Origin: Myxococcota bacterium | GTDB taxonomy: Bacteria > Myxococcota_A > UBA9160 > SMWR01 | Assembly: GCA_039030075.1 (NCBI GenBank) | Contig: JBCCEW010000037.1 | Coordinates: 1 to 45,428 of the forward strand | Direction of reading: 5' to 3' | DNA length: 45,428 nt | Part shown: positions 5,924-16,712 of the stretch, piece after piece | Layout: each line of letters opens with the position of its first letter | How positions within the stretch are numbered: the stretch's first letter is position 1 | Translations under genes and position numbers: made by a program | The notes under the pieces: model-generated | The model's input: only the letters and a program-made list of their open reading frames with translations | The model's database searches: none | What the model was told of the DNA's origin: nothing

Positions 5924-6481
5924 CTACGGGGTCTTGGCGCGGAACACCCGGCGAATCCGCATCGGGCCGTCGTCGGTGTCGATCCGGTTCCGCAGCTCGA
6001 GGTGGTCGTCCACGCGGGCCCAGGTCGACGTGATGACGACGATGCGGTCCGCATCGACGTAGTTCTGCTGGGTCACGACGAGCTCGCCGGCGTCGTTCCA
6101 CACCTCGCTCGAGACGACCTTGCGCCCGAGCGGGTCCTTCCGCTCGCGCTCGACGCCATCCGCGGGCATGGGCGTGTCGGTGGTCTGGATCGGGTTCTCG
6201 TTGACGATGCGCAGGCCGTCCCCGAGTGGCGTGATGGTCAGGGTCGGCTCCATCACGTCGGCCATCTTGCGCGCGACCCAGGGCGCTTCCATCACCTCGA
6301 GCAGCGGTCCGATGGGGTCGGAGGCGTCGCCGTCGAGCTGCCAGACGCCGATGTAGGAGTCGCCCGGGTCCGAAGCGTTCTCGGCCGCGGTGGCGCTGGC
6401 GAACAGCGCGCAGCACAAGAGCGCTACCGGAGCAGCCAGCCGCGTTCGCGCTCCAGAGTGGCTCGATCGGAAGACGCGCAT
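5924..6481 (-). CDS. Secreted hypothetical protein, lipocalin-like pattern
   Basis: This 185-residue protein begins with an export signal (hydrophobic core LAAPVALLCCALFASATAA, cleavage near residue 32) and continues as a mostly beta-strand domain (IGVWQLDGDAS, LTITPLGDGLRIVNE, DRIVVITSTWARVDDHLELRN). The pattern recalls a small lipocalin-like or START-type barrel, but I cannot assign a family. It begins 10 bases after the stop of the Sec-containing redoxin, so it is probably the last gene of the ScsB-redoxin transcript and may act in the same periplasmic redox process. Confidence 0.65.
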   Translation of the reverse strand: MRVFRSSHSGARTRLAAPVALLCCALFASATAAENASDPGDSYIGVWQLDGDASDPIGPLLEVMEAPWVARKMADVMEPTLTITPLGDGLRIVNENPIQTTDTPMPADGVERERKDPLGRKVVSSEVWNDAGELVVTQQNYVDADRIVVITSTWARVDDHLELRNRIDTDDGPMRIRRVFRAKTP

Positions 6482-6491
6482 GCGCTGCACC

Positions 6492-7256
6492 TCAGTCGAG
6501 ATGGGCTTCGAGGGCAGCCAATACGACCTCGGGCCCCGAGCGCCGCTGGTAGTTCTCGGCCACGTCCATCCAGAGCACCTTGCCGTTGGCATCGACGAGG
6601 AGTGACGCGGGAACGGGCAGCGCTTCGATCTCGTCTCGTGGGTCGCCCGAGTGGGCACCCTCGTTACGCAGGCCGAAGGCGTCGGTCACCGCCAGGGTGC
6701 GGTCCGAGAGCATGGTCGCCTGCAGCCCGTGGGCCCGTCGACCCTTGCGGATGTCCTCCGGGTGGTCGGTGCTCACGGTCAGCACTTGTACGCCGCGCTC
6801 GTCGAACTCACTTCGCAGTTCTTCCCATCGCCGCAACTCGGCGACACAGTACGGTCACCAGTGGGCGCGGAAGAACTTGATCAGGACCGGGTTGCCGCGC
6901 AGCCGTGCCGAGTCGAAGAGTTCGCCGTGGTCGTCGGGCGCGTTGAAGTCCGGGATCGTGTCGCCCACCTGGATCGCGTTCGGCGGCAGGATCTGCTCGC
7001 TGATGCTCACGGTGAAGGTCAGGAAGAGCCCGAGCACGATCGCGGGCAGCGCCGCGATCCGGCCGAGCCAGGTTGCCTTCATCACGAAGGCCGCGACGCC
7101 GAGCGCGGCGGCGCTCAGCCAGGCTGCGACGAAGAGAACGCGGCTCTGGGGGAGGTCGACCGCTTCCGCCAGCGAGAACCACGTCATCACCGAGCCGACG
7201 GCGAGCGCGAGCCCCACCAGGGCCAACCGGTTTCCTAGATTCGCCAAGGCACTCAC
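6492..7256 (-). CDS. Selenocysteine-containing membrane redoxin (UPYC)
   Basis: Read through the in-frame TGA at 6857-6855, this is one 254-residue protein. Residues 1-90 hold three transmembrane segments. From about residue 95 it is a peroxiredoxin/AhpC-TSA-like thioredoxin fold: VGDTIPDFNAPDDHGELFD, then LIKFFRAHW-U-PYC-VAELRRWEELRSEF, then VQVLTVSTD and PASLLVDANGKVLWMD. Relatives carry WCPYC at this point, so TGA replaces the first redox cysteine; Sec is residue 134 and the resolving Cys is 137. A hairpin suited to bacterial SECIS follows the TGA. The start is GTG at 7256, behind GAGGAGG. Three helices with the N-terminus inside would place the redoxin domain in the periplasm, where the adjacent ScsB/DsbD-like reductase could reduce it. 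Automatic annotation would split this into two hypothetical genes (7256-6855 and 6836-6492). A sequencing error (TGC to TGA) is the alternative, but the hairpin argues against it. Confidence 0.88.
6826..6846 (-). promoter_or_regulatory. Bacterial SECIS hairpin of the redoxin gene
   Basis: In the mRNA sense the eight bases UGUCGCCG pair with CGGCGAUG around a five-base loop AGUUG. Six of the pairs are Watson-Crick and the two outer ones are G-U. The hairpin starts 9 nt after the UGA and the loop G of the GU pair is 18 nt after it. This is within the distance known for bacterial SECIS elements, which carry a G (often GU or GG) in a small apical loop for SelB binding. The element lies wholly in coding sequence. 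Confidence 0.8.
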
Positions 7257-7319
7257 GCAGGCCTCCTCGTTCTCGGGGCGCGGCGAACACGCCGCGCCGA
7301 TTCTAGTACGCCGCAGCGT

Positions 7320-9680
7320 TCAGATGCCGGCTTCTCGCCCTGCGGCCGCGAGAGCTTCGACCGTGTCGTCGAGGGTCAAGAGCTCTGGGAGCAGCTCGGG
7401 CGACTTCGCGGGGTCGGCGGGATACACGAGGTACATCGGCACACCGGCGCGGCCCCAGGTTCCCAGCGCGCGGGTGATCCGGTCGTCCCGCCGGGTCCAG
7501 TCGGCCTTGAAGACCGCGTAGTTCCAGCGCTCGAGCTCGTTGCGGACGGCGTCCTGCGAGAGCACGACGGTCTCGTTGACCTTGCAGGTGATGCACCAGT
7601 CGGCGGTGAAGTCGACGAACACGGGGCGGCCCGCTGCGCGTTCGCGCGCGATCGCGGCGGGGTCGAAAGCCACCCAGGCGATCCCGTCGCCGGAGTCGGC
7701 GACGCGGTCTCGGGTGTCCGGGGGCGGCGCCGCGTCGAAGGGCAGGATGGCGAGCGCCCCGACGACGAAGGCGAGTGTCGCGGCGGCCAGGCTGCGGGCC
7801 CAGCCGGTGCGCGCTGCTGCCTGGGCGATTCCGAAGAGCCACGCCAGGAACGCGACGACGACCAGGTAGGCCAGCAGCAGGGACTGGGTGTCGACGCCCG
7901 CGGCCCGTCCTGCCACCCAGGTCAGCCACATCACGGTGGCGAGGAGGGCGAAGGCGAGCGCCTGGCGCACGCGGAGCATCCAGGCGCCGGGGCGCGGGAC
8001 GAAGCGGGACCAGCCCGGCACGACGGTCACCAGCACGAAGGGCGCCGCGAGGCCGATTCCGATCGCAGTGAAGATGGCCACGATCACCAGCCCCGAGCTC
8101 GCGAAGGCAAAGCCCACCGCCGTTCCGAGGAACGGCGCGGTGCACGGCGTCGCGACGGCGACGGCGAGGGTGCCCTCGAAGAAGCTTCGCGAGGTCGCCG
8201 GGGGTCCGACCGCGGGCCCGAGATCCGGTCCGGACGGTTGCAGCGTGATCTCGAACGCACCGAAGAGGTTCATCGCGAACACGACGAGGATCGTGCAGAT
8301 CGCCGCCAGAAAGATCGGGTTCTGGAGCTGGAAGCCCCAGCCGACCGCAGCTCCTGCCGAACGCAGTGCGATCACGACCGCGGCGAGCGCCCACATCGAC
8401 GCGACGATGCCGGCGAGATAGGCGAGGCCGTGTCGCACGGCGTGCCCGCGCTCGGCCTGGGCGAGCTGGGTGACGGCGAAGATCTTGATCGCGAGCACGG
8501 GCAGGACGCAGGGCATCAGGTTCAAGATCAACCCGCCGACCAGCCCGAGCAGCAACGCGAAAGCCAACGACGGGGAATCGGGCTGCGGCGCCTCGGTGGC
8601 CTTCGGCTCGTCGGGGGCCGAGGGCAGGGCGGCGATCACGTCGAAGGTCCCGGCGGACGCTTCGTTGGCGTCGACGACGAGCGGGATGTCCACCGCGAGG
8701 TGCGCCGCCTGGTCGGCGCGGGCGAGCGGAACGATGCCGCGCAGGCGCATGCCATCCAGCGCCTGTTCCCCTTCGAAGGACTCGGCGTGCAAGACGAGCG
8801 AGAAGCCGCGGGTCTCGTCACCGTCCACGCCCGCTTGCGGCGCGCGCGCGAGCCCTTGCGCCGAGAAGCCCACGTCCGACGCCTCGAGGGGGAGGAACGC
8901 CTGGTCGGCGTAGGGTGTGTCGAGGATCCAGGGGCGGCAGTCCGCACCGGCTTCCGTGCAGGAGCTGATCTCGAGCACGACCGCAACGGGTTCGTCGACC
9001 GCGGTCGGCTTCGCAGCGCGGGCGGCGACGTTCGCCTGGAGCGCGCGCGGACGCTGCGGCACCCGGGACGCCGCGAGGTCGAAGCGCTGGCGAACCGAGA
9101 CCTCCGCGGGCGTACGCGTCTCGCCGACGGGAACGGCGTGCGCGAGCTCGATGCGGCCCGGAATGCAGGCGGTGAGGCACGCGACGAAGCGGACCTGGGC
9201 TTCGAGGTTCCAGGCGTCCGACGCAGCTGGCACGACGCGCGCCTCGGCGTGCAGCAATACCTCGTCCTTGTAGCCGTAGGTCGTCAGCAGGCCGTCCGCT
9301 TCGCGAAACACGTGTGGTGCCGGCCAGCGGAGCGGTCCGACCTCGCCCTGGGGAGCGTTCCAGGCGATCTGGGTGGCGGCGCCCGAGTCGCCCGGATTCT
9401 CCCAATAGATGTGCCAGCCCGGATCCAGGGTGAGCAGGACCCCGACGCGAACGCGATCGCCGGGCGCCACGCGGTCCGCGTCGACGACGAGCTCGGCGCG
9501 GACCCGCGCATCGTCGACGCCCAGGGCCGCCTCGCCGGTCGGCCCGGGCGCTGCGAGAGCGGGGAGGGCCAGGGTCAGCAGCACCCCCACGAGCGTCAGC
9601 GCGCGTAGCGCCGAGAGGCGAACGCGCTGCGCGCGAGGGTTGGATCGGGGCACCGACACCGGTGCGGGTTCCTGGAACAT
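7320..9680 (-). CDS. ScsB/DsbD-like thiol:disulfide interchange protein
   Basis: This 786-residue membrane reductase passes electrons from cytoplasmic thioredoxin to periplasmic thiol proteins. The order is: signal peptide (hydrophobic core near residues 27-43); a periplasmic beta-sandwich domain of the DsbC/ScsB N-terminal type with FVACLTACIPG and two further cysteines (SSCTEAGADCRPW); a CcdA/DsbD-type transmembrane domain with the paired cysteine motifs NLMPCVLPV and ATPCTAPF; and a C-terminal thioredoxin domain with DFTADWCITCK (Cys696 and Cys699). All six expected redox cysteines are visible. It is the first gene of a minus-strand group, 63 bases ahead of the Sec-redoxin, which is a plausible partner. 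The start at 9680 lacks a strong ribosome site, and in-frame GTG codons downstream are possible. Confidence 0.9.
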   Translation of the reverse strand: MFQEPAPVSVPRSNPRAQRVRLSALRALTLVGVLLTLALPALAAPGPTGEAALGVDDARVRAELVVDADRVAPGDRVRVGVLLTLDPGWHIYWENPGDSGAATQIAWNAPQGEVGPLRWPAPHVFREADGLLTTYGYKDEVLLHAEARVVPAASDAWNLEAQVRFVACLTACIPGRIELAHAVPVGETRTPAEVSVRQRFDLAASRVPQRPRALQANVAARAAKPTAVDEPVAVVLEISSCTEAGADCRPWILDTPYADQAFLPLEASDVGFSAQGLARAPQAGVDGDETRGFSLVLHAESFEGEQALDGMRLRGIVPLARADQAAHLAVDIPLVVDANEASAGTFDVIAALPSAPDEPKATEAPQPDSPSLAFALLLGLVGGLILNLMPCVLPVLAIKIFAVTQLAQAERGHAVRHGLAYLAGIVASMWALAAVVIALRSAGAAVGWGFQLQNPIFLAAICTILVVFAMNLFGAFEITLQPSGPDLGPAVGPPATSRSFFEGTLAVAVATPCTAPFLGTAVGFAFASSGLVIVAIFTAIGIGLAAPFVLVTVVPGWSRFVPRPGAWMLRVRQALAFALLATVMWLTWVAGRAAGVDTQSLLLAYLVVVAFLAWLFGIAQAAARTGWARSLAAATLAFVVGALAILPFDAAPPPDTRDRVADSGDGIAWVAFDPAAIARERAAGRPVFVDFTADWCITCKVNETVVLSQDAVRNELERWNYAVFKADWTRRDDRITRALGTWGRAGVPMYLVYPADPAKSPELLPELLTLDDTVEALAAAGREAGI

Positions 9681-13686: not shown

Positions 13687-14369
13687 GGAATCTTCCTTTC
13701 GGGTGAGGGCGCGAGCGGAGCTCGCGGTGGATTCGACGCACGGGTGCTCCCGCGCCGGCGCAGCATGCGCCAAGCGAACGCCCCGACGAGCAGGGCGCCC
13801 GCGAGCAGCAGCCAGGTTTCCCGAGGCTGCTCGGTGAGCCAGCGGAAGGCATGTCCGCCGCCGTAGCTCACGGCGACGAGCCAGGGGAGCATGCCGATCA
13901 TCGAGCCCAGCAGGTAGTCGCGGAAGCGAACCGGCGAGAGTCCGAGGAACCAGTGCGCTGGGGGGGCGATGAAGAAGACGAGACGCACCAGCACGACCGT
14001 CTCGAGTCCGCGCTCTTCGATCCGGGACTCGTAGCGACGGACGTTCTCCGGCAGGCGCGCGGCGACCCAATCGCGACCGATCCAGCGTGCGAAGAAGAAG
14101 CCCACCAGCCCGGCCGTCTGGGCACCGAGGAAGTTGTAGAGGAACGCCAGGGAAGGGGGCCAGATCGCGATCGCGGCCAACATGAAGACGACGCCGGGGA
14201 CTCCAACCCCTTCGAGCCCGAAGAGCGCGACGAACACCACCGGACCCCACGGACCGGCGCCGTCGACGAGGTTGCGGACCGTGTCGAGTTCGAGGTGCGC
14301 GTGCAAGCCCGTGCCCCACGCCACGAGAGCCACGCCGACCAAACCGGCCAGGATCGCGAGCCGTTTCAC
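13683..14369 (-). CDS. TVP38/TMEM64 (DedA-like) membrane protein
   Basis: This 228-residue integral membrane protein has about five hydrophobic segments. The VTT/SNARE-associated domain signature is visible: GLEGVGVPGVVFMLAAIAIWPPSLAFLYNFLGAQTAGLVGFFFARWIGRDW, followed by VLVRLVFFIAPPAHWFLGLSPVRFRDYLLGSMIGMLPWL (positions about 52-166; quoted in parts of the protein). Members are putative lipid scramblases or transporters. It overlaps both neighbours by four bases, so it is translationally coupled to the monooxygenase upstream and the FMN reductase downstream. Confidence 0.85.
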   Translation of the reverse strand: MKRLAILAGLVGVALVAWGTGLHAHLELDTVRNLVDGAGPWGPVVFVALFGLEGVGVPGVVFMLAAIAIWPPSLAFLYNFLGAQTAGLVGFFFARWIGRDWVAARLPENVRRYESRIEERGLETVVLVRLVFFIAPPAHWFLGLSPVRFRDYLLGSMIGMLPWLVAVSYGGGHAFRWLTEQPRETWLLLAGALLVGAFAWRMLRRRGSTRASNPPRAPLAPSPERKIP

Positions 14370-16018
14370 CGGGAGCCGACCACCGTTTCGATCACCCCGG
14401 CCGGTTCCGAGGGCAGGGCCGAACCGCGCCAGGCCACCACACCATCCGGGCGGACGAGGGTGAACGGAAGCGGGTAGGCCGCGGACGCCTCGGGGACGGC
14501 TTCGATCCGGAGCGGGACCCGCCGTTCCTCGGCCGCCCGCTGGAGCGCATCCGTCCCGTTCGCTGCATCCGTGCAGACCAGCGTGAGGCCTCGGCCGTAG
14601 AGATCGAGAATCGAGCGTCCTCCCCGGAGTGACACGTGCGGCGCGCGGCCCCCCGGCTTCGTGGTGGCTTCGTAGACGCGGTTGTCCGAGCGATCGATGG
14701 GCGGAGTCCCATCATCGCAGACGATCGGCGAGCTGTCGTAGCGTGTGCCCAGATCGATCTGCGGTTTCACGTACTCGTCACCCCGGGAATCGATCAAGCC
14801 GACCCCGAACGCGCGCCGCGCGGTTTCCCCCGCCTCGTCGGTGCGCCAGAGCTCCTCCGTCGGGATCTTGTGGATCGGCAGTGGCGGGCCCAGGCGCTCG
14901 GGATCCGGCCCCGAGAAGTCCACGCCCTGGTACCGGAGCAGGTCGAGGGCGGCGAGGCTTCGCTCGGTCTCGTAGCTCTCCTCGAGCAGGCGTGGCCCTC
15001 CCCAGCCGCGGAGTGTCGCGTCGAGCTTCCAACCGAGATCGAACGCGTCGGCCATGCCCGTGTTCACGCCGAGACCACCGAAGGGCGTCACGACGTGAGC
15101 TGCGTCCCCGGCGAGGAAGACGCGCCCCGCGCGGAACGAGGTGGCGAGGGCCTGACGCGGAGTCCACGCACTCATGGCCAGGATCTCCGCGTCCGGCGCT
15201 CCCAGCTCGGCGAGGCGAGCGGCGGTCTTCGCCTCGTCGTCGGCGTCCAGACCGAGACCGTGGATGCGCCAGAGGTGGTGGCCATCGACGGTGATCATGA
15301 GGGCTGCTCCGACGGGCGAGGGCGTCGGGCCGGCCTCGGTCCCGAGCAAGAGGTACTGCACGGCGCCGGGGGGCACCTGGTCGGCGACCCGGCGCGAGCG
15401 GAAGAAGGCGGAGTGGACGCGCACAGGAATCGCCGGCGGGCCGACGAGTTCGATGCCCAGCGACTCGCGGACGCGACTGCTTCCCCCGTCGCAGGCGACC
15501 GCGAAGGCCGCGCGCACCTCGACCCGGCCGCCTTCGGCATCGCGCCCGGCGCAAGCGACGCCACTGCGGGTTACCGACACGGAGTCGATCTGGACGCCGT
15601 GGTGAATCGCGGCCGTCTCCGTCGCATGGACCGCCCGTTCGAGAATCGGATCGAAACACGGCTTCGGCGCCCACACTTCCCGTTCGGGAGAGTCGCTGCG
15701 ATCGCGCGAATCGGCGAGCGCATCCTCGACGCGGCAGACCTCGGCACCGCCGAGATGGGTGAGGCAGACGAAGTCGCCTCCCCAGTCCGGGCGAAACGCT
15801 CGGCGCACCTCGTCCGAGAGCCCATGACGTCGGAGCTGTTCCATCGTTCGGACGCCGATGTGGTTCGCGGTGGGGAAGACGGGCTCGCCGGCACCGCGCC
15901 GCTCGAGCACCGCGCAGTCGACGCCGCGCGACCCGAGCTCCAGCGCGAGGCACAACCCCACCGGGCCGCCGCCGATGATCGCGACCTGCGTTTCGATCGT
16001 GTGGGTGTCTCGACTCAT
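14366..16018 (-). CDS. FAD-dependent aromatic monooxygenase (PheA/TetX type)
   Basis: This 550-residue flavoprotein hydroxylase is of the phenol or 3-(3-hydroxyphenyl)propionate hydroxylase type. The N-terminal AIIGGGPVGLCLALELGSRG binds the ADP part of FAD, VACDGGSSRVRESLGI is the DG motif, and RVFLAGDAAHVVTPFGGLGVNTGMAD is the GD motif that binds the flavin ribityl. A C-terminal thioredoxin-like domain (from about 450) is present. It probably hydroxylates an aromatic ring using NAD(P)H and O2. The ATG at 16018 starts directly at the FAD-binding domain. It heads an operon with a membrane protein and an FMN reductase, 52 bases downstream of a TetR regulator. Confidence 0.9.
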   Translation of the reverse strand: MSRDTHTIETQVAIIGGGPVGLCLALELGSRGVDCAVLERRGAGEPVFPTANHIGVRTMEQLRRHGLSDEVRRAFRPDWGGDFVCLTHLGGAEVCRVEDALADSRDRSDSPEREVWAPKPCFDPILERAVHATETAAIHHGVQIDSVSVTRSGVACAGRDAEGGRVEVRAAFAVACDGGSSRVRESLGIELVGPPAIPVRVHSAFFRSRRVADQVPPGAVQYLLLGTEAGPTPSPVGAALMITVDGHHLWRIHGLGLDADDEAKTAARLAELGAPDAEILAMSAWTPRQALATSFRAGRVFLAGDAAHVVTPFGGLGVNTGMADAFDLGWKLDATLRGWGGPRLLEESYETERSLAALDLLRYQGVDFSGPDPERLGPPLPIHKIPTEELWRTDEAGETARRAFGVGLIDSRGDEYVKPQIDLGTRYDSSPIVCDDGTPPIDRSDNRVYEATTKPGGRAPHVSLRGGRSILDLYGRGLTLVCTDAANGTDALQRAAEERRVPLRIEAVPEASAAYPLPFTLVRPDGVVAWRGSALPSEPAGVIETVVGSR

Positions 16019-16070
16019 CTCTGGGCACCTCCGAGAGGAGCGGTGGCGTTGGGGCGGCGCGCTCGAGCGC

Positions 16071-16712
16071 CTACCGGGCGGACAGGGCCGGGGTTCGGGA
16101 CGCCGTCGCGACGGCGGCGGCCGCGAGGGTTCGCGCTTCGGGCGCCGACACGCCGAGCGCACGCAGTCCGCGCTCGATGGAGCGCTTCGAGACGTCGTCG
16201 TCCGCGAGGCCCGCGACGATGCGACGGATCGTCATGACGAGCAGACCGATCGTCTGGTCGAGCGTGGCGTCGTCGGGCCCCGTGTCGAAGCGACCCTCAG
16301 CGAGTCCCTCCGAAAGGTCTTCTCGCAGGTATCCATTGATGCGGTTGTAGACCGTCGGCCGGTTGACGAGCCGCAAGACGAGACGCGCCCAGGGCGTGTC
16401 GGTGGCTGCGCGGCGCAGGATGACGGCCGAGGTCAGCGCCACCCGAAGTGCCGGGTCCGGGATCGGCTCCTCGGCGGTGGCCGCCGTCGCGGCCAGGGTG
16501 TGCAGCTGTTCCTCGGTGACGGCGTCGATCAGGGCATCGCGGTCGGCGAAGTAGTTGTAGAAGGTGCCGACGGCGACTTCGGCTTCCGTGCTCACGTCGC
16601 TCGCCGTCAGCGTGTCGCCCTTGGTGGAGAGGACGCGCATTCCGGCGGCGAGCAGCTGCCGACGTGTCCTCTCTTTCTTCCGGTAGCCGCGGGTCCGGCG
16701 TGTCTCGGGCAT
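16071..16712 (-). CDS. TetR-family regulator
   Basis: This 213-residue regulator has an N-terminal helix-turn-helix domain (KERTRRQLLAAGMRVLSTKG, then the recognition part EAEVAVGTFYNYFADRDALI) and a helical ligand domain. I chose the ATG at 16712 because the frame upstream, to 16775, crosses an AT-rich palindrome that looks like an operator rather than coding sequence. It lies just upstream of the monooxygenase operon on the same strand and likely controls that operon together with its own expression. Confidence 0.9.
   Translation of the reverse strand: MPETRRTRGYRKKERTRRQLLAAGMRVLSTKGDTLTASDVSTEAEVAVGTFYNYFADRDALIDAVTEEQLHTLAATAATAEEPIPDPALRVALTSAVILRRAATDTPWARLVLRLVNRPTVYNRINGYLREDLSEGLAEGRFDTGPDDATLDQTIGLLVMTIRRIVAGLADDDVSKRSIERGLRALGVSAPEARTLAAAAVATASRTPALSAR

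Follow-up and report, generated by a model that had tools for sequence, protein, structure and literature searches.

A family of UxxC redoxin selenoproteins with a predicted three-helix membrane anchor in uncultured Myxococcota-type bacteria

A redoxin gene interrupted by an in-frame TGA raises two questions: is the TGA read as selenocysteine (Sec), and what kind of enzyme would result? The gene lies on the minus strand of a 45,428-nucleotide stretch of DNA, here called the window. Re-reading of the minus-strand frame at 6492-7256 gave 133 codons from a GTG start, the TGA, 120 further codons and a terminal TGA, and read-through translation places Sec134 in the context KFFRAHW-U-PYCVAELRRW. The features of the reading frame are as follows:

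7262..7267, minus strand: ribosome-binding site AGGAGG, 5 nt before the GTG at 7256 (from the sequence)
6492..7256, minus strand: complete selenoprotein coding sequence of 254 aa with Sec134 and a GTG start (from the sequence; orthologues share the layout)
6855..6857, minus strand: in-frame TGA, codon 134, selenocysteine at the first position of U-P-Y-C (conserved TGA; TGC in the homologues L119 and L120)
6495..6974, minus strand: AhpC/TSA-type redoxin domain, residues 95-254 (Pfam, structure model and structure matches)
6492-6494, minus strand: TGA stop of the selenoprotein coding sequence (from the sequence)

The initial annotation had described a redoxin domain interrupted by the TGA and 120 open codons beyond it, and both are present: with U read as C, the Pfam AhpC-TSA match runs across the TGA and covers residues 97-229 (98.9 bits; PF00578 gathering score 26). 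Its prediction that standard gene calling would break the gene in two agrees with the mechanical ORF list, which cuts it into 6855-7256 and 6492-6836. When the window was scanned by codon-position GC for further TGA-split coding frames, 6492-7256 was the only convincing one; the other TGA-split frames resemble normal ends of genes or readings in the wrong frame.

The TGA could nevertheless be a genuine stop codon, the result of a sequencing error or the scar of a pseudogene, in which case the product would not be a selenoprotein. TGA normally terminates translation, and this coding sequence itself ends in TGA. This explanation is contradicted by the occurrence of the identical TGA in dozens of independent genomes, which also disposes of the concern that the codon is a misread TGC. 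Codon 134 is TGA in 37/37 family loci inspected by alignment, which are homologues with 38 to 80% identity from relatives of the source genome, a few contigs being represented twice. When 284 genomes of the phylum were searched with a profile, 53 strong matches (E <= 1e-30) were obtained in 42 genomes, all 53 with exactly one in-frame TGA and none without. Downstream of the TGA, dN is far below dS in all pairs tested (for L010/L012, dN 0.04 and dS 0.46), and this purifying selection past the TGA likewise speaks against a stop or a pseudogene, as does covariation in the RNA hairpin that follows the codon:

6826..6846, minus strand: bacterial SECIS (bSECIS) hairpin TGTCGCCG-AGTTG-CGGCGATG, with arms at 6839-6846 and 6826-6833 and the loop AGTTG at 6834-6838 (covariation, frozen synonymous codons, published criteria)

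The 8-bp hairpin with an AGUUG loop had been noticed from the outset and was recovered here, the loop G being the 18th nucleotide after the TGA. Two of its eight base pairs are G-U, and 16 nt lie between the TGA and the 5-nt loop. Published criteria for bSECIS elements specify a loop of 3-9 nt with a G in its first two positions, a stem of 4-16 bp, a spacing of 16-37 nt and a minimum free energy of at most -7.5 kcal/mol (PMC13188914); the hairpin agrees with all of them (5-nt loop beginning AG(U), 8-bp stem, 16-nt spacing, -11.8 kcal/mol). Its energy alone is not significant against shuffles (z = -1.0), which fold about equally well in this 70% GC sequence. Stability was therefore not used as evidence, and the weight rests on conservation and covariation.

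In the family alignment, the hairpin occupies positions 12-19/25-32, with the T of the TGA as position 1, and has the loop AGUUR. Pair 14-30 occurs as UA, GC or CG, and pair 18-26 as CG or UA, the latter in L037 and L038 at the cost of an Arg-to-Gln change. The covariation score (0.195 versus 0.101 when shuffled) was reached in 0/500 shuffles and is the best of all slid registers; the signal is clear but not large, with just two pairs varying on both sides. Codon usage is constrained in the same segment. Codons +4, +6, +8 and +9 show no synonymous change, against a top-codon average of 0.61 at conserved codons elsewhere, and GTC, GAG, CGG and CGA within the hairpin are exceptionless in the main set. 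At Leu+7, 14/35 sequences use TTA, versus 1/931 in the remainder of the gene; at Cys+3, 33/35 use TGT, versus 3/28 in the remainder, where TGC is used. The amino acid context of the hairpin is also invariant, so that part of this nucleotide freezing reflects protein constraint. An Rfam scan of the window returned 0 matches.

The source genome encodes the machinery that Sec insertion would require. The initial annotation had named absence of selABCD as grounds for abandoning its reading, and the opposite was found: selA (517 bits), selB (323) and selD (271) each score above their curated cut-offs, and a tRNA-Sec with the anticodon tca (UCA) was detected at 69.7 bits. A second Rfam tRNA-Sec match above the cut-off in this genome was discarded, as ARAGORN calls it tRNA-Ser(tga). 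Two genomes that carry the gene, G050 and G303, gave no match to selA; perhaps these metagenome-assembled genomes (MAGs) are incomplete.

The source genome (G000) contains four additional redoxin-like genes (L088-L091), each with a single in-frame TGA, and thus appears to be rich in selenoprotein redoxins:

L088: contig C9, 149923-150528
L089: contig C3, 140968-141558
L090: contig C12, 112077-112547
L091: contig C36, 33923-34378

The hairpins of the three that were inspected (L088-L090) are unlike that of the window gene. The SECIS model R1, searched against the source genome, found one confident match, the 6492-7256 gene itself (E 1.1e-13; next 0.06), from which it follows that other selenoprotein genes of this genome use different hairpins. 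The element of the window gene is nearly frozen across the family, yet differs from those of other selenoprotein genes in the same genome, a pattern that is not obviously accounted for by SelB recognition alone.

A Sec/Cys pair provides a further line of evidence. Two full-length gammaproteobacterial homologues, L119 and L120, have a WCPYC motif with TGC at the position of codon 134 and are 44-45% identical to the Sec member L094. They belong to the same order as a gammaproteobacterial MAG in which the Sec form is present, and they resemble the window protein in combining an N-terminal hydrophobic region with a redoxin domain, but they differ from the window gene in having TGC instead of TGA and in lacking the family SECIS hairpin, which was not found in either. 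In a tree rooted on one outgroup sequence, both are nested within a Sec clade (support 0.958). This position inside a clade of Sec forms suggests, as an indication from the tree, that Sec was replaced by Cys in their lineage.

Five independent tests (TGA conservation, selection, RNA, machinery and the Sec/Cys pair) therefore agree, and we regard it as virtually certain that the product of the 6492-7256 gene is a selenoprotein. An explanation by a stop, an error or a pseudogene scar, which the full Sec machinery and the Sec/Cys pair contradict as well, retains almost no credibility. The result is a solid selenoprotein family that mechanical gene calling splits in two.

Within uncultured Myxococcota-type bacteria the family is widespread in one order, and it also occurs in marine gammaproteobacteria; in all, dozens of bacteria, most of them uncultured, share the TGA and the RNA signal. 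The MAGs among these genomes are possibly incomplete or contaminated. Two Sec forms from gammaproteobacterial MAGs, L054 and L055, are ~64% identical to the window protein and have the same hairpin, in genomes with selA; they may stem from either horizontal transfer or mis-binning. In two other gammaproteobacterial Sec members, L117 and L118, the hairpins are weaker and depart from the family SECIS by a larger loop or a bulged stem; they are perhaps fitted to a different SelB. A search of viral contigs for relatives of the selenoprotein found none. The main clade is essentially Sec-only, and close Cys forms are absent there, which is the situation in which homology-filtered selenoprotein finders are said to fail (deep-Sep, PMC12013277). 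For questions of SECIS constraint and Sec-to-Cys replacement, the family amounts to a clean natural experiment.

Two further features bear on where the protein may act:

7005..7256, minus strand: residues 1-84, the N-terminal region, predicted to form three transmembrane helices (AlphaFold model, hydropathy, charge counts)
7320..9680, minus strand: DsbD homologue with DsbD_N, DsbD_TM and a C-terminal thioredoxin domain with WCITC (domain matches), 63 nt upstream of the selenoprotein gene on the same strand

An AlphaFold2 model built on the family alignment (mean pLDDT 94.3) contains helices at residues 2-31, 40-58 and 63-84 followed by the redoxin domain, and so bears out the three N-terminal helices proposed in the initial annotation. 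The segment after helix 3 carries a net negative charge, and the N-terminus and loop 2 a net positive one. These counts favour an N-in, redoxin-out topology, although weakly, since loop 1 is positive as well; the redoxin domain is most likely periplasmic. A close homologue of the window DsbD precedes the redoxin gene in 10/37 loci, all from the near clade, with a few contigs entering the count twice; in L057 (Candidatus Binatia), the preceding gene is of the DsbD/CcdA-thioredoxin type. In the remaining members among the 37 loci, whose flanks often extend just 1.5 kb, no adjacent DsbD was seen.

Which reaction the redoxin domain might catalyse depends on how its active site is read. The residues concerned, besides Sec134, are:

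6846..6848, minus strand: Cys137, second residue of UxxC and counterpart of the PrxQ peroxidatic Cys in the alignments (the same residue in all 32 aligned members)
6609..6611, minus strand: Pro216 of the loop PVP(A/T)S, invariant (32/32) and aligned with the cis-Pro of ResA/thioredoxin, a position occupied by Arg in peroxiredoxins (alignments; PMC2757866)

The initial annotation had proposed a Sec-dependent peroxiredoxin-like enzyme with Sec at the peroxidatic Cys. The Sec and the peroxiredoxin-like fold stand, but the alignment does not: profile alignments with PrxQ/BCP (2cx3, 2ywn, 5enu) pair Sec134 with the Thr/Ser of TxxC, and it is Cys137 that matches the peroxidatic Cys. In peroxiredoxins, the first Cys has been lost, the second serves as the nucleophile, and Arg takes the place of the thioredoxin cis-Pro (PMC2757866). 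In the window family, the presumed nucleophile is not the last residue of T(S)xxC/U, and Pro occupies the Arg position in 32/32 aligned members. The profile alignment with ResA (4nmu) instead matches Sec134 to the first Cys of WCxxC and PVPTSLLVD to PLPTSFLID, so that UxxC coincides with the thioredoxin CxxC. Given Sec at the Thr position, the invariant Pro in place of Arg and the distinction between UXXC and TXXU drawn in the Sargasso Sea survey (PMC1088965), we interpret these residues as the active site of a UxxC thiol:disulfide oxidoreductase built on a peroxiredoxin scaffold, which may have some peroxidase activity as well.

A different function on the same scaffold would be that of a Sec-dependent peroxidase, fed by DsbD and chiefly reducing envelope peroxides. 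The AhpC-TSA Pfam match fits such an enzyme, the closest solved folds are true peroxiredoxins (Bcp4, AhpC and Prx6; for Bcp4 3hjp, Z 22.6 over 156 residues at 2.0 A), and the top NCBIfam match, below its cut-off, is thiol peroxidase BCP. In Caulobacter, an envelope peroxiredoxin is reduced by ScsB, which offers an analogue. A DsbD-class transporter with an envelope peroxiredoxin as substrate is known (Cho et al. 2012, cited in PMC4460558). Both conserved catalytic residues other than Cys are missing, however, with Thr of TxxC replaced by Sec and Arg by Pro, and known Sec-peroxiredoxins have Sec last in TxxU, not first in UxxC (PMC1088965, PMC13188914). We consider a peroxidase of this kind unlikely.

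The protein might also be a membrane-tethered relative of ResA/TlpA that acts in cytochrome c maturation or reduces one dedicated envelope protein. Foldseek matches ResA too, ResA is the best profile match among solved structures (1.6e-13), and the two share a WCxxC-type site (WUxxC here), the cis-Pro loop P(L/V)PTS(F/L)L(I/V)D and a membrane anchor; CcmG, moreover, is fed by DsbD in known systems mentioned in PMC8782879. The window protein differs in having Sec for the first Cys and three helices, and it scores 49 bits against the ResA model NF002854, whose cut-off is 170. Inspection by eye recognised no cytochrome c maturation genes beside the inspected loci, and a ResA/TlpA-like role seems rather improbable.

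As a putative UxxC oxidoreductase, the window family can be compared with catalogued selenoproteins. A prokaryotic catalogue lists both Prx-like thiol:disulfide oxidoreductases (PF00578, UxxC/UxxU), for which thiol:disulfide exchange is "predicted with high confidence", and a UxxC redoxin family (PMC13188914). The GOS survey reported 225 "Prx-like 1" pfam00578 UxxC sequences (PMC2398784), and the "Prx-like" family of the Sargasso Sea survey has UXXC as opposed to the TXXU of Sec-peroxiredoxin (PMC1088965). The window family shares with the catalogued Prx-like proteins the PF00578 domain, Sec as the first residue of UxxC rather than last in TxxU, and a bSECIS after the UGA. It agrees with the catalogue definition (PF00578, UxxC) and, judged by sequence, thus belongs to this known kind. 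Measured against the published descriptions of these proteins, it appears to be set apart by its predicted three-helix anchor, its DsbD neighbour and the invariant core KFFR(A/G)HWUPYCVAEL(R/Q)R of the main clade. In the literature searched, we found no description of the three-helix anchor, the DsbD neighbour or the near-invariant SECIS.

No NCBIfam model reached its cut-off with the window protein (best 63 bits versus 140), and scans of the other 31 members matched the same models at similar strength. Sec-peroxiredoxin PrxU (NF040737) has the AhpC/TSA fold and an active-site Sec in common with the window protein, whose Sec sits at the Thr and not the peroxidatic position, with neither the Thr nor the Arg present, and which scores 25 bits against a cut-off of 270. 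The SelL-related redox protein (NF040769) and WAxxUGC_long (NF041054) are likewise redoxin scaffolds with selenoprotein members, but the scores are 30 bits versus a cut-off of 120 and 34 bits versus 300, respectively.

For the UxxC oxidoreductase, we propose the following cycle. UGA codon 134 would be decoded as Sec by SelB and tRNA-Sec, directed by the hairpin that follows the codon, with 16 nt between the UGA and the loop. The three helices would anchor the protein in the inner membrane, with the redoxin domain facing the periplasm. There, the Sec134 selenolate would attack an oxidised envelope substrate, presumably a disulfide and possibly a sulfenic acid or peroxide, and Cys137 would resolve the intermediate to give a Sec134-Cys137 selenenylsulfide. 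The C-terminal thioredoxin domain of the neighbouring DsbD could then re-reduce this selenenylsulfide on the periplasmic face.

Taken together, the full explanation, comprising Sec decoding, a membrane anchor, an active site of UPYC and cis-Pro, and a DsbD-fed cycle, appears likely. The narrower proposal of a periplasm-facing Sec reductase fed by DsbD, which derives from the DsbD gene directly upstream in the near clade, is one that we favour on balance. More tentatively, the proteins may form a membrane-anchored envelope family that passes DsbD electrons across the inner membrane to Sec, as a Sec-based pathway dedicated to reduction in the periplasm; the literature searched held no description of such a DsbD-to-Sec route. 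If the link to DsbD is true, envelope redox maintenance would gain a branch based on selenium.

The gene that follows on the other side may belong to the same transcription unit:

5924..6481, minus strand: ORF encoding 185 aa, the first of which resemble a signal peptide, 10 nt downstream of the stop codon of the selenoprotein gene (from the sequence)

Its product has no Pfam or NCBIfam match, and the ORF is possibly co-transcribed with the selenoprotein gene. Elsewhere in the window, ARAGORN placed two tRNA-Gly calls within coding frames, one at 8270-8368 (minus strand) in the DsbD gene and one at 16043-16113 (plus strand) in the ORF 14366-16162; both are probably false positives.
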